36,911 bases of DNA from a virus. The DNA lies in the IMG/VR virus record IMGVR_UViG_3300036832_000697, positions 1 through 36,911 of that record; one strand, 5' to 3'. Of this stretch, positions 2,619-34,424 are shown in pieces; the first letter of the stretch is position 1; each line of letters opens with the position of its first letter. A program made the translations under genes and the position numbers. The notes beneath the pieces were generated by a model. It was given only the letters and a program-made list of their open reading frames with translations. It had not been told where the DNA came from and did no database searches.

Positions 2619-2980
2619 TTTTTCCGCTTGCGGTTCCGGACCGCCGCCGCGGGATCGATTCCGCGTTCGCGTTTCGTCTCGACGCCGCGGCGGGCGGCGC
2701 GTCGACGGACGCGGCGAATGAGTTGATCGTTGTGGCGGAAGATCGCCGCGGTGACTTCCGGCGGGATCACGTACCGCCGACCGCCGTCCGCGGCGTTGAA
2801 CTGGACGAACACGGTAACGCGGGCGTCGTCGGCGCGGTACGTTTCGATAACCCAGGTTTCCGCGTTCCCGTAGAAATCGCGCGCGTGTACGGTCGAATCC
2901 GCGCCAAGCGACGCCGGATTATCCTGGACCGCGCGCAACGTCCTCGAGAATACGTCGGTCGGAATCGGTCCGTCGCTCAT
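2615..2980 (-). CDS. Hypothetical protein with basic C-terminus
   Basis: This 121-residue protein is of unknown function. A compact alpha/beta part (residues 25-75: W-V-I-E-T-Y-R, R-V-T-V-F-V-Q-F, R-R-Y-V-I-P-P-E-V-T-A-A-I) is followed by a strongly basic tail ending R-N-R-K-R-K-K. The ATG overlaps the stop of the upstream membrane protein (ATGA). The R-Y-V-I-P-P-E-V motif recurs in uncultured-phage proteins I have seen, always without an assigned function. Confidence 0.75.
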   Translation of the reverse strand: MSDGPIPTDVFSRTLRAVQDNPASLGADSTVHARDFYGNAETWVIETYRADDARVTVFVQFNAADGGRRYVIPPEVTAAIFRHNDQLIRRVRRRAARRGVETKRERGIDPAAAVRNRKRKK

Positions 2981-3117
2981 GGAAGCATCCACGCGAGGAC
3001 GACGAGGGCGAGCGCGGCGCGCGTCAGTTTCTCCGCGGTCGTCGTCGACAGGTACGCCGCGACCGCGAAGAGAGCGAACGCGAGGACGACGACGATCATT
3101 CGATACGATGGAGCCAT
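2977..3117 (-). CDS. Two-helix membrane protein, holin candidate
   Basis: This 46-residue ORF sits in the gap between the TIM-barrel-like gene and the 121-residue gene. It has a strong GGGAGGG ribosome site 7 nt before its ATG, and its stop forms an ATGA overlap with the next gene. The product has two hydrophobic helices: residues 7-23 (M-I-V-V-V-L-A-F-A-L-F-A-V-A-A-Y-L) and 32-45 (T-R-A-A-L-A-L-V-V-L-A-W-M-L). They are separated by a short polar turn, with both ends charged. Small proteins of this form next to a cell-wall hydrolase are often holins. The location beside a possible hydrolase supports that role, but sequence alone cannot prove it. Confidence 0.7.
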   Translation of the reverse strand: MAPSYRMIVVVLAFALFAVAAYLSTTTAEKLTRAALALVVLAWMLP

Positions 3118-3132
3118 GATCTTTCCCTCCCG

Positions 3133-4173
3133 TTAAACCGGATTTCCCTCGAGGTCGCGGAGACCCTCGCCGGATCCCCAGACCTTCGCGTCCGTGTGTT
3201 TGACGTCGTCGAACGTGCAACAACCGAGGTACCCGTCGAGATTCGCGTCGTCCTCTGTCGGCGTCGGATTGTCAAACATGCGGTACGCCATGCGCTCGAA
3301 CGCGCGGAGTTTCCAGCGGTTCCCGTATTCGCCGAACTGCCACAACGTATCGACGATCCGCGCCTGCCATTCGTCCGCGAGCCAATTCGGATCGCCCTGG
3401 TAGTCGATCCCGTCGACGTCGTCGCCGAGATGATTCCAGAATCCGAATCGTCCTTCCGGATCGCCGTCCGCGAACCAGGACGTTACATGCGGCGAGAAAT
3501 GGACCCAACACGAACAACCGGACGCATGAGCGCGTTTCCCGACTGCCTTGCAAATGTCCTCCGTCGTTTTCCCCGGGACGTTGAAGAGATCCATTTCCCA
3601 TGCGGGAATGAACTCGTCGACGACGCCCGCGGATGTCAACGCGTCCATGATCGGGAACGCGTAATCCTGGTATTGCTGGACGCCCATATCATGCGGTTGG
3701 AAGTACTTCGACGCGAGGAACGTCGCGACATAGAGTCCCGTCGATTTCAGTCGTCCGTGATTGTCGACGACCTCCGCGAGCGAATGACCGGATCCCGGCG
3801 GCGAGTTCGGTCCGTTGTCGACGGGTCCCATTTCGTCGGGCGGCGACAAAAACACGTGCGTGTACCCGTTGCGGAAGTTCTGGTCGATCCATTTCTCCTG
3901 GAACTCGCGCGGATACCGATCGAAAAACCAGGAGAGGAATCGTTCCATCGCGACCGGATTACTCGACCCGCCGGGAATGAACGGGAGACCCGCGAGCGTA
4001 ATCCCCCAACAATCGGCGCGGAGGTAGTCCCGCGATTTCGGCGGCGTCCAGGGTAACGTCGAGTAGACCTTGATTCCGGTCGGGAGCGGCGGGAGCGGCG
4101 CGCGTTTCTCCGGCGCGGGTCTCGAGGTCGTCGACGACCCGCCCGACATCATGAGGCGGCGGATCGTGTCCAT
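3133..4173 (-). CDS. Possible TIM-barrel glycoside-hydrolase-like protein
   Basis: This 346-residue protein starts with a disordered Pro/Ser-rich leader (residues 1-33), followed by a globular domain rich in Trp, Phe and acidic residues. Segments of the type G-Y-T-H-V-F-L-S, W-E-M-D-L-F, C-W-V-H-F-S-P-H and G-I-D-Y-Q-G-D-P look like successive strand ends of a glycosidase-type TIM barrel, with E (W-E-M-D) or D residues as possible catalytic acids. No named GH family is recognised. It lies between the propeller-like protein (TAATG overlap upstream) and a holin candidate. A role as cell-wall or capsule hydrolase is plausible, and a virion-associated depolymerase is the alternative. No other endolysin is visible in the window. 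Confidence 0.65.
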   Translation of the reverse strand: MDTIRRLMMSGGSSTTSRPAPEKRAPLPPLPTGIKVYSTLPWTPPKSRDYLRADCWGITLAGLPFIPGGSSNPVAMERFLSWFFDRYPREFQEKWIDQNFRNGYTHVFLSPPDEMGPVDNGPNSPPGSGHSLAEVVDNHGRLKSTGLYVATFLASKYFQPHDMGVQQYQDYAFPIMDALTSAGVVDEFIPAWEMDLFNVPGKTTEDICKAVGKRAHASGCSCWVHFSPHVTSWFADGDPEGRFGFWNHLGDDVDGIDYQGDPNWLADEWQARIVDTLWQFGEYGNRWKLRAFERMAYRMFDNPTPTEDDANLDGYLGCCTFDDVKHTDAKVWGSGEGLRDLEGNPV

Positions 4174-5384
4174 TATTTCGCCTCGACGCAAAACCGGATG
4201 TACGCGTTCGGGACGTTGTTCCAGAACCGATCGGCGACGAGGGTCTGTCCGACGCGTTGAAAACTTTCGAACGCGCCGCCGGGATTCTCCCGCCATTCGT
4301 CTTTCCCTTGATCGGTGACGCAATAGATCGGCGTTTTCTGGACGTTCGCGTCCGCGCTCGAGGCGCGCGCGACGGATCGGTAACTCTCCGTCCCGTCCGC
4401 GTTTTTGATGATGTCGAACTTTTCGACCTCGAGCGCGGGATTCGTTTTCTCGAACTTCGTTTCGATGTACAGCATTGCAGGGACCTCCGGTTGTTGTGGC
4501 GGTTGTTCGGGTTCCGGCGGTTCGACGTCCGGCGGTTCGACCGGCGGATCAATCGGCGGCGGTTCGATCGGCGGTTCGATCGGCGGTTCGACGGGCGGCG
4601 CCTCGAGGCGGACGCGCGGTTCCGTGCGATCGACGAGGAATCGGACGACGTCGGACGGTCCCTCGCCCTGTGTGACGGACCATGTAACCAGGAGTTCGCC
4701 GTCGACGTTGCGAACGTGATGATTGAAAAACGTCGGCGTCGTTCCGAGGATGTATCCGTCGTCCGCGCCGTCGACTTGCGCGATAAATCCGACGCGATCG
4801 GACCAGTAGACGATCCAGCGTTCGTCCTCGAGGTCCGCGACCAGGACGTTTTGCGCGTCCGGACAGGCGGGAACCGGAACGGGAATCCCGTACGCGCCGT
4901 GTTTCCAGATCGCGACGCCCGCGCGGATCGTCTGTTCGGATCCCGCGTAGATCCCGGCGACCTCATGCGCGAGACCGTCCGAGTCCACGATCGCGAGTCC
5001 GTATCCGTACCCGCGATCCGGGATGTACGCGATCGTCCCGTCCGGCGAGACGCTCAGACGTCCGGCGACGCCCGCCGCCGGGAGATGTCCGAGCGATCCA
5101 AAACAGCCGTACCCCGCCAACCATGCGATGTAGCGTCCGCCGCCCGCGGCGAACTCATTCGCGCCGCGGTTCTCCGGAAGGATCGTCGGCGCCGCGTCGC
5201 CGGGATGCCAGATCGCAAGAACCGCCTCGAGCGGCGGCGGCGCGGGAATCGAAACGAGGACCGTATTGTCGTCCAGCCACGCGCCGCCGCCGAACGTCTG
5301 GAACGGAAACGGGACGCCGTTCAGCGACCCTTGAACTCCGGCGACTCCGGCGAGGACGTCTCCGCGTCCGTTGAGGATCGGCAT
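4173..5384 (-). CDS. Propeller-like protein with proline-rich linker
   Basis: This 403-residue protein has three parts. Residues 1-270 contain repeated beta segments (V-L-V-S-I-P, R-Y-I-A-W-L-A-G, R-L-S-V-S-P-D-G-T-I-A-Y-I-P-D, R-W-I-V-Y-W-S-D, G-E-L-L-V-T-W-S-V) that read like beta-propeller blades. Residues about 272-312 are a Pro-rich linker of P-P-[I/V]-[E/D] units, encoded by near-exact 12-nt tandem repeats (about 4510-4600). A separate small C-terminal domain of about 90 residues follows, containing two cysteines. There is a good GGGGGA ribosome site before ATG 5384. The architecture suggests an extracellular or virion surface protein with two binding domains (inference). The TAATG overlap links it to the hydrolase-like gene. 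Confidence 0.65.
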   Translation of the reverse strand: MPILNGRGDVLAGVAGVQGSLNGVPFPFQTFGGGAWLDDNTVLVSIPAPPPLEAVLAIWHPGDAAPTILPENRGANEFAAGGGRYIAWLAGYGCFGSLGHLPAAGVAGRLSVSPDGTIAYIPDRGYGYGLAIVDSDGLAHEVAGIYAGSEQTIRAGVAIWKHGAYGIPVPVPACPDAQNVLVADLEDERWIVYWSDRVGFIAQVDGADDGYILGTTPTFFNHHVRNVDGELLVTWSVTQGEGPSDVVRFLVDRTEPRVRLEAPPVEPPIEPPIEPPPIDPPVEPPDVEPPEPEQPPQQPEVPAMLYIETKFEKTNPALEVEKFDIIKNADGTESYRSVARASSADANVQKTPIYCVTDQGKDEWRENPGGAFESFQRVGQTLVADRFWNNVPNAYIRFCVEAK

Positions 5385-16070: not shown

Positions 16071-17432
16071 ATGGCGCGCGAAAGTACGACCGGATTCGTC
16101 CGGAAAATCTGTGATTGCGTGAAATGGAAGGAATGTAAACATCGGTTCTACGTCTGGACGGGACGAGACCCGGACCGCGGATACTTGCGGAAACCGATCG
16201 GCGATGTCGTCGGGCGGGAACCGAAAGATTTCGCGGACGCCAAGATCGAAGCGAAACGCGCGTACGTCGCATGGAAGGACGGGAAAGACCCGCGCGATCT
16301 ACTCCCGGAGGATGCGCCGACCCTCCGGGACTTGCTGACCGCGTACGCCGAGCGGGTCGACGGAGCGGCGATCCTGGAGTCGCGACGGAAACTCATTTGT
16401 CGGACGGTCGTCAACGGTCGCGCGTTCGGCGATTACCGCGGCGCGGAGGTCACACTCGCGATGATCGAGGCGTTCCAAAAGACGCGCCCCGTCGTCGCGG
16501 GGAATCGCGACCTCGCGTTACTTCGCGCGACGTACAACTGGGCGATTCCGCGCGGTCTCGTCCCGTCGACGCCGTTCAAGGTGTCGAACGCGGTCGCGGT
16601 GAAACTCCAACGCGAGGAGAAACGGAGTCGCCGCCTGTATCCCGGCGAATACGACCGCCTCCAGTCGCACGCGTCCCAGTACCAGAAGGACGTCAACGAC
16701 GCCGCCCTCGAGACCGCCTGTCGACAGGGCGAACTCCTGTCCCTCCAATGGTCGCAAGTTCGCGACGACATTTTCCTCCCGGCGGGAAAGACGAAAGCGA
16801 AAAAGGATCGCCGGATCCCGATCTCCTCGACGTTGCGCGCGATCCTCGAGCGGCGCCGCCTCGACCCGGCGGGCGAACCGCTCCCGGAGACCGCGTTCGT
16901 CTTCGGGGACGAGATCGGGCGTCCGCTGACCTGGAACAAAAAGGGATGGGTGAGTCTCGTCCTCCGCGCGAACGACCTCCGTCCGGAACACGTCGTCCGG
17001 GTCGTGAACGGGCGGAAACGCTGGCTCGCGACGTTGACGCCCGCAACGCGCGAGGCGTATCGAAAGATCGGTCTCCACTTTCACGATCTCCGGCGCGAGG
17101 GCGCGTCCCGCTGGATGGACGCGGGCGTCCCTCTGGGCGTCATCCAACGCTGGCTAGGTCACTCCAACGTCGCCCAGACGTCGACGTACCTCGCCGGGAC
17201 GAGCGGCGGCGATGAGGAAGCGATGCGCGCGTTCGAGGCGGCGGTCGCGCGGAAACGGCAGTCCCCGCGCGGCGGGCGGGAGAATAGAGAAAGATCGACG
17301 ACTCGAGGGGCGAGTTTCTTTCCCCATATTTCCCCATTGGCCGGATCGGGGGGGTCCAAAGGGGTTCGACAGGCGTTTAGACTCGTCAAAAACCCCAATA
17401 AATCCCGCAACGTCCCCAAAACGGCAAGCTAA
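16071..17432 (+). CDS. int: Tyrosine-family integrase
   Basis: This 453-residue protein catalyses site-specific recombination between attP and a host attB. The active-site set is visible: R218 (T-A-C-R-Q-G-E), Lys in K240-K245, H338-x2-R341 (H-D-L-R), H364 (W-L-G-H) and the nucleophile Y373 (S-T-Y-L-A-G). The N-terminus has a small cysteine cluster (C14, C16, C22) and a SAM-like core-binding domain (about 85-165). The ATG at 16071 is chosen because the long upstream extension lies in another gene's frame. The gene stops 6 nt before the attP core, and the last 70 residues are a low-complexity extension. Confidence 0.95.
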   Translation: MARESTTGFVRKICDCVKWKECKHRFYVWTGRDPDRGYLRKPIGDVVGREPKDFADAKIEAKRAYVAWKDGKDPRDLLPEDAPTLRDLLTAYAERVDGAAILESRRKLICRTVVNGRAFGDYRGAEVTLAMIEAFQKTRPVVAGNRDLALLRATYNWAIPRGLVPSTPFKVSNAVAVKLQREEKRSRRLYPGEYDRLQSHASQYQKDVNDAALETACRQGELLSLQWSQVRDDIFLPAGKTKAKKDRRIPISSTLRAILERRRLDPAGEPLPETAFVFGDEIGRPLTWNKKGWVSLVLRANDLRPEHVVRVVNGRKRWLATLTPATREAYRKIGLHFHDLRREGASRWMDAGVPLGVIQRWLGHSNVAQTSTYLAGTSGGDEEAMRAFEAAVARKRQSPRGGRENRERSTTRGASFFPHISPLAGSGGSKGVRQAFRLVKNPNKSRNVPKTAS

Positions 17433-17438
17433 CCAGCC

Positions 17439-17482
17439 GACTTTTAATCACAGGGGCGTCAGTTCAATCCTGACCCGGGTCA
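17439..17482 (+). other. attP: attP core: 3' half of tRNA-Lys (UUU)
   Basis: The segment reads as the 3' part of a tRNA gene, with every spacing correct. It has anticodon loop CTTTTAA (anticodon TTT), 3' anticodon stem TCACA, a five-base variable loop GGGGC, then T-arm GTCAG-TTCAATC-CTGAC (perfect 5-bp stem, A58 present). The acceptor strand CCGGGTC and discriminator A complete it. No 5' half is present and no CCA follows. It is directly downstream of the integrase, as expected for a tRNA-targeting attP. Confidence 0.9.
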
Positions 17483-17491
17483 GTCAATAAA

Positions 17492-17527
17492 AACGGGCCG
17501 ATTCTCACTTTCGAGGGTCGGCCCGTT
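17492..17527. terminator. Bidirectional intrinsic terminator
   Basis: A 10-bp perfect stem (AACGGGCCGA at 17492-17501 and TCGGCCCGTT at 17518-17527) has a 16-nt loop. On the minus strand the stem is followed by TTTTTATT-type sequence, and on the plus strand by a T-rich stretch. It ends the integrase transcript and also the leftward structural transcript. After integration it would lie just behind the restored host tRNA. Confidence 0.85.
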
Positions 17528-17815
17528 CGTCGTTTCTTTCTCTATTCTTTCCTCATTTCCCGATCCGCGCGCGAGGACTGTCGGGAATCGTCGTTGACTA
17601 TCGGTCCCGGTCGGGAGCATTCTCGAGACGTCCGGGAGTCGGTCCCCCGGGCGGCGCGCGGCGACGAACCCGGAGTCCGTCGCCGCTTCCCAGAGGCGCC
17701 GCCAGAACGACCAGGGTCCCCCCAGAACGACGCGGGGACATCGTCCGCACCACGGCGCCGCCCGCGCCGCGCGGTCCCGCGGAACCCGATGTCCCTGTGT
17801 TCGAACGGAGGTCCC

Positions 17816-18061
17816 ATGCCGATCGAGACGCCCGTCCCGCCCGCGCCGCCTGTCGCGGAGTCCTCGCCCTGGATGACGGCGCGCGACGCCGCCGCCTACA
17901 TCCGGAAAAACAAAAAGTTCGTCCTTCGCGAGATCCGTCTGGGACGCCTCCGTGCCGCGCGGGTCGGCGGACGCGGCGAGATCCTCACGCGCCGCGATTG
18001 GATCGACGAGTGGGTTCTGAGTCGCGCTCAACCGCTCGAGGTTGTTCGGCGTCGCCGGTAG
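17816..18061 (+). CDS. Excisionase-like helix-turn-helix protein
   Basis: This 81-residue protein has a disordered N-terminus and then an HTH_17-type domain at residues about 20-65 (W-M-T-A-R-D-A-A-A-Y-I-R-K-N-K-K-F-V-L-R-E-I, then R-L-R-A-A-R-V-G-G-R-G-E-I-L-T-R-R-D-W-I-D). Members include phage excisionases and small regulators. The ATG is 5 nt after GGAGG. It lies on the far side of attP from integrase, and its last 77 nt overlap the convergent membrane-protein gene. Confidence 0.78.
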   Translation: MPIETPVPPAPPVAESSPWMTARDAAAYIRKNKKFVLREIRLGRLRAARVGGRGEILTRRDWIDEWVLSRAQPLEVVRRRR

Positions 18062-32174: not shown

Positions 32175-34082
32175 TTACGCCGCGACGTACGTTTGTTGCG
32201 TGTACTGGACCGTCCCTTGTCGGGCGACTTTCCAGGTGATGATCCGATCCGCGCGGAGTCCGACGAGGTTGTTTTGCCACAACGACGTCATGACGACCGT
32301 TGCGTCCGCCGGATTCATGGGCGCGTTATCCATTTGGACGGACGCCTCGCGCGAGACGTCGATTTCGACGCCGCCCTCGTCCGCCATGAGGATTCCGTCG
32401 CCTTTGACGAGGACGACGTTCTGTCCAAGCGACTGCGACGTCAGGACGTCGTATCCCATCGCGCGCCCGCCGGAGGCGCCCAGTCCCGGGAACAACTGTT
32501 GTCCGAGCGGGTTCAACGCGGACGCGAGCGCGAGCGCGTTCGTCTCCGACATGAGGAGGACGGCGCCGCCGGTCGAGATATTGAGCGCGGTCATAGCGGC
32601 GGCGAGGGCCTGGATATCCGTTCGCGCATTCGCGGGCGTCGGACCGACCGACGGGATCTTCGCGACCGTGTTCGTCACGCTCCCGGGCGAGACGTTCGCG
32701 ACCGCCGCGACGGTCGGATCGGTGAACTGGATATCGAGGAACGTCGCGATCCCGCGGATCATGTCCTGCCGGATGATTTCCTCCGCGGAGGGCGTCGAGA
32801 TCCGCGCGAGTTCCTCCGTGATCACGATGATCCCCGAACACTTCGCGATCGCGAGGGTCAGAGTTCCGAACGTGAGTTTTCCGACTGGCTTCGGGGCGCC
32901 CTGTCCGACCCATCCGTACGTTCCGCCGCCGGTTTGCGCCGGAACGGAAATGTTGAACGGAACGGGACGCATGCCGGGAACGCGATCGAGAATCGTCGCC
33001 GCGCGGAGGAGCGGGAGGAACTCGTCGACCAAGGGTTTGAGCGGCGCCAATGGTCCCGCCCAGGTCGCGTCCGTCGTCGTGCCGGGAGCGACCGCCGCTT
33101 TGAGGGCGAGTTCGACCTCCGGCGTCGAGTCGCGCCATTGCTTCGACCATTCGACCGCCTGCATTTTGTTTCCCTGACAGGCGGCGAGCGCTTGACAGTA
33201 GCGAATAAATGCGGTCGCGGGTTTCAGTTGCCGCGTGACCGTGACGATCGGCGACGCGCCGCGTTCGGCGATCGCGCGGTCCGCGGTCCCGGTGACAGCG
33301 GTCGCGCGCGCGAGGTTCGACGATTCGAGCGCGCGGAGGCGGACGAGATGCGCGTCGATCGATCGGACGTCCGCCGCGACGTTGTCGTACTCCTCCGCCT
33401 GCGGTCCGTCGAGGGTCGTTCCGCCCTCCGCGGCGGCGTTCATGATCTCTGTCTGTCGCGCGGATTTCGACGCGCGCGTCGCTTCGAACGCGGCGATCTG
33501 TTCGGGAATGGTTTTCGTTTGCTGCATGATGGACGCGCCTCGCATGGCGCGGACGACTGGGAAATGGCCCGCGGTCAGGGGCGGCGTTGACGTGTGAAGG
33601 ACGACCCGCTCGAGATCCAGCGACTTGATCGTGTCGATCGTCGCGCTTGCATTCGCGGGAATGCTGACGAGCGATAGCTCGAGGACCTCACTTTTGATAA
33701 AGCGGAACGACTGCGTTTCCGTTATCCATGCTTCCTCGATCGCGCGGAATCCGATCGAGACGCCCGCGAGGAGTCCGTTCACGATGGACTGCCACGCCTC
33801 TTCGACCCGATCGCGCAACGTCCCCGCCTCGTCGATCGTCGGGAGCGTCGCCTCGAACGCGAGTCCGTCTTTCGTCGGCGGGAAAAACCGGACCTGTCCA
33901 ACGGGTTTCGTTGTGTTGTGGTACAGGAGCAGCGGGACGGGATTCGTGTACGAGATACCGAGCGGTTCGACGATGTCCCCCATACGATCCGGTTCGGGCG
34001 TCGACGCCGTTCCCGTAATCGTCCGTTGTTCGGCGTTCGCCGACTTGACGCGGAGGAGACTGTACGCGCGCTTGAGGACCAT
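32175..34082 (-). CDS. Fused prohead protease and major capsid protein
   Basis: One 635-residue ORF holds both proteins. Residues 1-165 are an HK97-type prohead protease with H55 (L-L-L-Y-H-N), S109 (A-G-V-S-I-G-F) and E132/E135 as likely catalytic residues. Residues about 190-300 are a helical scaffold (delta-type) part, and 300-635 the HK97-fold coat protein (N-I-S-V-P-A-Q-T, I-I-V-I-T-E-E-L-A-R, G-G-V-E-I-D-V). Self-cleavage should separate them. An internal ATG at 33527 could also give the capsid alone. The fusion is known in some phages but not the commonest form. Confidence 0.9.
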   Translation of the reverse strand: MVLKRAYSLLRVKSANAEQRTITGTASTPEPDRMGDIVEPLGISYTNPVPLLLYHNTTKPVGQVRFFPPTKDGLAFEATLPTIDEAGTLRDRVEEAWQSIVNGLLAGVSIGFRAIEEAWITETQSFRFIKSEVLELSLVSIPANASATIDTIKSLDLERVVLHTSTPPLTAGHFPVVRAMRGASIMQQTKTIPEQIAAFEATRASKSARQTEIMNAAAEGGTTLDGPQAEEYDNVAADVRSIDAHLVRLRALESSNLARATAVTGTADRAIAERGASPIVTVTRQLKPATAFIRYCQALAACQGNKMQAVEWSKQWRDSTPEVELALKAAVAPGTTTDATWAGPLAPLKPLVDEFLPLLRAATILDRVPGMRPVPFNISVPAQTGGGTYGWVGQGAPKPVGKLTFGTLTLAIAKCSGIIVITEELARISTPSAEEIIRQDMIRGIATFLDIQFTDPTVAAVANVSPGSVTNTVAKIPSVGPTPANARTDIQALAAAMTALNISTGGAVLLMSETNALALASALNPLGQQLFPGLGASGGRAMGYDVLTSQSLGQNVVLVKGDGILMADEGGVEIDVSREASVQMDNAPMNPADATVVMTSLWQNNLVGLRADRIITWKVARQGTVQYTQQTYVAA

Positions 34083-34217: not shown

Positions 34218-34424
34218 TCACTCGTCACGGATCCCGATGACCGGAAACGGGCGGCGGTCCTCGACGCGTTCGTCGATCAATTCGCGGATGATGCCGGAGA
34301 CGCCCGTCCCTTGCGCGGCGGCGACGCGCCGCAACGTGAGGCGTTGCGCGGGCGTGACCCGAACGACGAGACGTTCGGTCGCGGCGGTCGGATAGAACGG
34401 CGGGCGTCCAGGTTTGTCAGACAT
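34218..34424 (-). CDS. Arc/CopG-like ribbon-helix-helix protein
   Basis: This 68-residue protein has the RHH pattern: E-R-L-V-V-R-V-T-P-A-Q-R-L-T-L-R-R-V-A-A-A-Q-G, then V-S-G-I-I-R-E-L-I-D-E-R. The ATG at 34424 is preferred because the longer version starts inside the terminase. RHH proteins bind DNA as dimers and usually repress nearby promoters. It sits between TerL and capsid, where it could control late expression (inference). Confidence 0.72.
   Translation of the reverse strand: MSDKPGRPPFYPTAATERLVVRVTPAQRLTLRRVAAAQGTGVSGIIRELIDERVEDRRPFPVIGIRDE

Follow-up and report, generated by a model that had tools for sequence, protein, structure and literature searches.

A putative phage attP core made of the 3' half of a tRNA-Lys(UUU) gene, with a probable acidobacterial host

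Introduction

Phage attachment sites built on half a tRNA gene have been described in mycobacteriophages. In Omega and other Cluster J phages int lies upstream of a 44-bp core, which is a tRNA 3' half with its left end in the anticodon loop and is flanked on each side by paired direct arm sites of roughly 10 bp (PMC3706429). The attP of mycobacteriophage Boilgate at tRNA-Lys-TTT has a 43-bp core in tRNA-Lys(UUU) that carries five mismatches to the host, with a functional fold still possible (PMC10865867). Such sites also resemble the "site A" islands in tRNA genes recorded by Islander, which have an anticodon-centred crossover (2083 of 3919) and a 3' tDNA fragment (3760 of 3919) (PMC4383910).

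Here we describe an attP of this known kind, an anticodon-site tDNA attP, in a poorly studied bacterial group. It lies in a linear metagenomic record of 36,911 nucleotides, all of which was analysed and which we call the window. The site shares the gene order, core and paired arm sites of Omega and is the same in kind as the Islander site A. However, the Omega core lies about 100 bp past int and in tRNA-Leu, whereas in the window 6 nt separate the stop codon of int from the tRNA half, the left arm sites are inside int and the likely host belongs to Acidobacteriota. Boilgate likewise belongs to another phylum, and the mismatches that we count for the window are to the nearest gene found, not to the host's own.

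Results

The features of the locus are given in order along the window.

16071 to 17432, plus strand: tyrosine integrase gene (int), 453 aa (PF00589, E 9e-16; phrog_1, E 4e-44 for the containing ORF)
17284 to 17292, minus strand: possible extra arm-type site, inverted, TTTCTCTAT (motif match)
17319 to 17327, plus strand: candidate arm-type site P1, TTTCCCCAT, within the int reading frame (repeat, motif and geometry)
17329 to 17337, plus strand: candidate arm-type site P2, TTTCCCCAT, 10 nt from P1, within the int reading frame
17439 to 17482, plus strand: putative attP core, 3' half of tRNA-Lys(UUU), G30 to A73, no CCA (letters read directly; same limits duplicated in G350)
17492 to 17527, plus strand: 15-bp hairpin, terminator-like, with a weak T run (MFE -30.5 kcal/mol for 17475-17560, z -6.05)
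17537 to 17545, plus strand: candidate arm-type site P'1, TTTCTCTAT (repeat, motif and geometry)
17548 to 17556, plus strand: candidate arm-type site P'2, TTTCCTCAT, 11 nt from P'1
17816 to 18061, plus strand: small HTH protein, 81 aa, excisionase-like (phrog_66 excisionase, E 2.6e-6)

The 44 bases at 17439-17482, GACTTTTAATCACAGGGGCGTCAGTTCAATCCTGACCCGGGTCA, parse as GA, the anticodon loop CTTTTAA (anticodon UUU), TCACA, the variable loop GGGGC, the T arm, CCGGGTC and the discriminator base A73 at 17482. The T arm, GTCAG-TTCAATC-CTGAC, forms five of five pairs and all tRNA spacings are exact. The discriminator is followed by GTC and not by CCA. The 5' half is absent, as the GCCGA just before the block pairs with TCACA at 2 of 5 positions. 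Consistent with this, neither ARAGORN nor Rfam reported a whole tRNA at 17439-17482, and Rfam with lax thresholds returned chance matches only. When the window was simulated 200 times under a first-order Markov model, a tRNA half with fixed spacing and anticodon TTT did not appear once; with any anticodon the pattern appeared 0.245 times per simulation. None of the shuffles matched the 33-nt stretch 17449-17481 at up to 3 mismatches. This confirms the reading of the initial annotation that the block is the complete 3' half of tRNA-Lys(UUU) without CCA, far beyond chance. It is a tRNA 3' fragment that begins in the anticodon arm. The sole ARAGORN call in the window, a tRNA-Leu(GAG) at 34303-34398, looks spurious, and Rfam sees no tRNA there.

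The catalytic domain of the adjoining integrase scored 58.6 bits to PF00589 (family cut-off 27.1), and the tyrosine recombinase catalytic residues R218, H338-R341, H364 and Y373 are invariant in five sequences, the window and four relatives. The excisionase-like gene at 17816-18061 lies downstream of the attP core. Its protein matches TIGR01764 at E 4.6e-5, under the curated cut-off, and HTH_17 also under cut-off; we regard it as a candidate recombination directionality factor. In a lysogen the hairpin at 17492-17527 would lie directly 3' of the restored tRNA.

As in a lambda/L5-type attP, repeated putative arm sites flank the core, here in a 2+2 geometry. A 12-nt direct repeat makes up two tandem pairs, one per side, and a perfect 14-nt inverted repeat joins 17281-17294 to 17535-17548. 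TTTCYYYAT occurs seven times in 36.9 kb, and 17284-17556 contains five of these matches; the expectation for the whole window is 0.44. This count is descriptive, as the repeats themselves supplied the motif. At the upstream pair the int frame reads TTCTTTCCCCATATTTCCCCATTG, which encodes FFPHISPL. By inspection, the peptide LAT at the matching part of several relatives' integrases would be TTGCAACG in frame.

An exact 38-mer of the tRNA block was absent from a collection of 84,980 species, the block was not found at up to 3 mismatches in 396 Acidobacteriota genomes, a 33-mer had no match among viral contigs, and a plasmid search gave no match. A degenerate tRNA-Lys pattern run over the 84,980 species matched two genomes only, both Acidobacteria MAGs (loci L004 and L005), one of them labelled gp6. 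From this label and its equivalence to subdivision 6 we take the class of L005 to be Vicinamibacteria, a name that we checked in the taxonomy. The tRNA-Lys gene of both MAGs is GACCCGGTAGCTCAGTGGTAGAGCATGTGACTTTTAATCACAGGGCCGTGGGTTCGATCCCCACCCGGGTCA; the next three bases are CGA in L004 and CCA in L005. The phage half is identical to its 3' half at 36 of 42 positions; the best of 200 simulated windows reached 28 of 42. All six differences are confined to the variable loop and T arm and include two compensatory T-stem pairs, so pairing is kept; the positions paired with the acidobacterial 5' half are all unchanged. A chimera of the acidobacterial 5' half and the phage 3' half was called tRNA-Lys by ARAGORN; chimeras with the 5' half of E. 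coli or of B. subtilis gave no tRNA-Lys call. These matches, the conserved pairing and the tRNA-Lys call for the chimera suggest that either an unseen host has the exact gene or the T arm of the phage copy has drifted and remains foldable. Boilgate is a published precedent for a drifted but foldable phage core (PMC10865867).

In the class of L005, 55 of 193 genomes searched had an integrase that matched that of the window at E≤1e-10. The best showed 45% identity over residues 8-413 (E 2.9e-75). The best match in 50,697 phage records was at about E 1e-11. An even sample of the phylum Acidobacteriota gave four genomes at E≤1e-35, all of them also found in the class. The best class integrases are adjoined by tRNA 3' halves, with the restored gene roughly 8-14 kb off. 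In each of five integrated relatives the restored tRNA gene marks one boundary, and its 3' end is duplicated next to int at the opposite boundary; the genes and duplication lengths are Pro(GGG) 45, Arg(CCU) 45, Arg(ACG) 49, Pro(UGG) 50 and Lys(UUU) 46 nt.

In G350 (locus L121) lies a sixth, decayed element of about 2 kb, ending in an integrase C-terminal remnant with 39% identity over 71 aa to the integrase of the window. It is bounded by an entire tRNA-Lys(UUU) gene and by a repeat of exactly the final 44 nt of that gene (G30 to A73). The limits of this duplication are those that the initial annotation had named for the block. The element resembles our locus in having the integrase C-terminus beside the partial copy and in its four arm sites; in contrast, its arm motif is TTGCAACGG where the window has TTTCYYYAT, and CCA is supplied by the element side.

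In viral contigs a single integrase protein as query gave no match, while an alignment of relatives as query did find relatives. The four closest of these integrases have 46-55% identity and tRNA 3' halves 24-43 nt past the stop codon, all with CCA.

More distant integrases of about 27-38% identity (L176, L177, L178 and L180-L184) have a tRNA 5' half, mostly of tRNA-Arg, in place of a 3' half just downstream of int; these halves end in the anticodon arm and several have a TATA-like box before them. In Islander, 5' tDNA fragments are rare, at 159 of 3919 (PMC4383910). The IMG/VR contig behind L046 is circular, and its overlapping ends (L110 and L111) differ in the tRNA-Arg core, with TCGGAT in one and CCGGGG in the other, which would fit a population that has more than one core variant. 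At L123 (G491:C75) a second integrase ORF on the opposite strand (2888-4252) faces the first directly past the partial copy of tRNA-Pro, which may reflect a tandem integration. G410 was considered as a prophage with two att copies and rejected because its ends overlap, which makes it a circular contig.

We then compared attP geometry, counting arm-site positions from the T-loop G53, in a fixed-geometry test designed after the repeats had been seen in the window and a flank word search. One pair of repeats at about -141 to -153 (spacing 10 or 11 nt) and another at +37 to +92 (spacing 11 nt) were found in 10 of 11 attP sites: those of the window, of six genome elements and of three among the four viral relatives. 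For each of these ten the arm geometry was found in 0 of 60 shuffles. The exception, L174, had no paired arm sites in this test. A generic search for recurrent words in the window flanks gave mostly GC-rich words, barely above shuffles, so that of the two approaches the fixed-geometry test told us more. The arm-site sequence varies: the window has TTTCCCCAT, the genomes have TTGCAACGG or variants of it, and the viral contigs have GTGACGCGT, CAGTGACAA and GTGACATAT. We consider it an even call whether this integrase family keeps attP geometry nearly fixed, with the end of int near the core, one arm-site pair around -145 at a spacing of about 10 nt and a downstream pair spaced by 11 nt, while the arm sequence is replaced wholesale (TTTCCCCAT, TTGCAACGG, TTGTGCAAC, GTGACGCGT, CAGTGACAA, GTGACATAT), partly inside the int frame.

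The initial annotation had proposed that, if the identity block runs to the discriminator base, the host gene does not encode CCA and that this is a clue to host taxonomy. Among host-side copies of the matching tRNA-Lys type, two of three are without CCA (L004 and the G350 host side) and L005 has it, which leaves a host gene without CCA plausible. The taxonomic clue was not borne out: 23 of 24 ARAGORN tRNA genes in loci of the L005 class encode CCA, so its absence is no guide to the host, and may be peculiar to the tRNA-Lys gene concerned or to the phage's copy of it. In G350 (L121, G350:C50) the restored tRNA-Lys is followed by CCA, which comes from the element side, and the displaced copy by TTT, from the host side; thus integration seemingly gave the host gene an encoded CCA.

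Relatives of the capsid protein are numerous in IMG/VR, and 80 were kept. Of 32 records checked among them, six have an integrase, five of these with a tRNA 3' half (Pro, Thr, Gly, Gly and Arg). The tRNA-Thr core of one, G415, is identical over 46 of 46 nt to a tRNA-Thr gene in a class genome. A capsid search of Acidobacteriota genomes gave nothing at E≤1e-40, and the L005-class genomes searched held no close relatives, only weak hits, the best at 37% over part of the protein. In the window, 32175-34082 encodes a single 635-aa protein that matches families of head maturation proteases as well as of major head proteins, and would be a fused protease-capsid like those of PAJU2-like phages.

Discussion

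Since the last 44 bases of a tRNA-Lys gene adjoin an integrase gene, the phage most likely inserts in that gene and repairs it. We hold it very probable that a lambda-type attP has its core at 17439-17482, recombines with a host tRNA-Lys(UUU) gene and rebuilds it; the host is most likely acidobacterial, with Vicinamibacteria the most likely class. The integrase N-terminal domains would sit on the two arm-site pairs (17319/17329 and 17537/17548) and the catalytic domain on the core, with the crossover probably in the anticodon stem-loop. The phage 3' half would then take the place of the host's, giving a tRNA made of the host 5' half, 17439-17482 and phage DNA from 17483, and the displaced host 3' half would come to lie beside int at the other prophage end. 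That the phage probably integrates in a tRNA-Lys gene and restores it, as the initial annotation proposed, is well supported by the adjoining int, the paired arm sites, the excisionase-like gene and the related elements, and further by the matching duplication in the tRNA-Lys(UUU) of G350 and the tRNA-Lys call for the chimera.

The host may instead belong to another phylum, with the same attP mechanism and with an integrase and tRNA whose likeness is convergent or transferred. This would affect the host call only and we think it unlikely. The missing close capsid relatives in the acidobacterial genomes searched are consistent with it, as is an integrase comparison confined to Acidobacteriota and phage records. 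However, the degenerate tRNA-Lys pattern picked out only two Acidobacteria in the whole collection, the integrase and attP architecture match acidobacterial elements, and the tRNA-Thr core of a capsid relative matches a class genome gene in full. The host is thus most likely an acidobacterium of the class Vicinamibacteria, and from this link we assume that the phage came from soil.

Failure to find an identical host gene in the 84,980 species or the 396 Acidobacteriota genomes would also fit a block that is the dead remnant of an old site, in a phage that integrates elsewhere or nowhere. We do not count the missing identical gene as refuting the site, and a relic is very improbable given that int is complete, the paired arm sites lie at the family's positions and the T-arm changes are compensatory. 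Also very improbable is tRNA-dependent lysogeny, by which some phages use the tRNA-Lys(UUU) site (PMC10865867) and in which the host tRNA-Lys would be cut via a short shared core of about 10 bp and not rebuilt, the phage supplying its own tRNA, since the half here is complete at 44 nt, its modelled product is recognised as a tRNA and ARAGORN found no tRNA-Lys gene in the window, a record that may be incomplete.

The putative attP gives a concrete host hypothesis for the phage (Acidobacteriota, class Vicinamibacteria) and an integration site usable for finding lysogens. It also carries a caution, as CCA missing at one attP says nothing of the host's tRNA genes. If attP geometry is indeed kept while arm sequences are replaced, the family would lend itself, as a natural series, to reading the recognition code by which the integrase arm-binding domain works, and would reflect rapid co-evolution of a protein with sites within its own gene. 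The assembled attP set, with one geometry and at least six arm motifs paired with sequenced integrases, would make the arm-binding specificity of tyrosine integrases testable.
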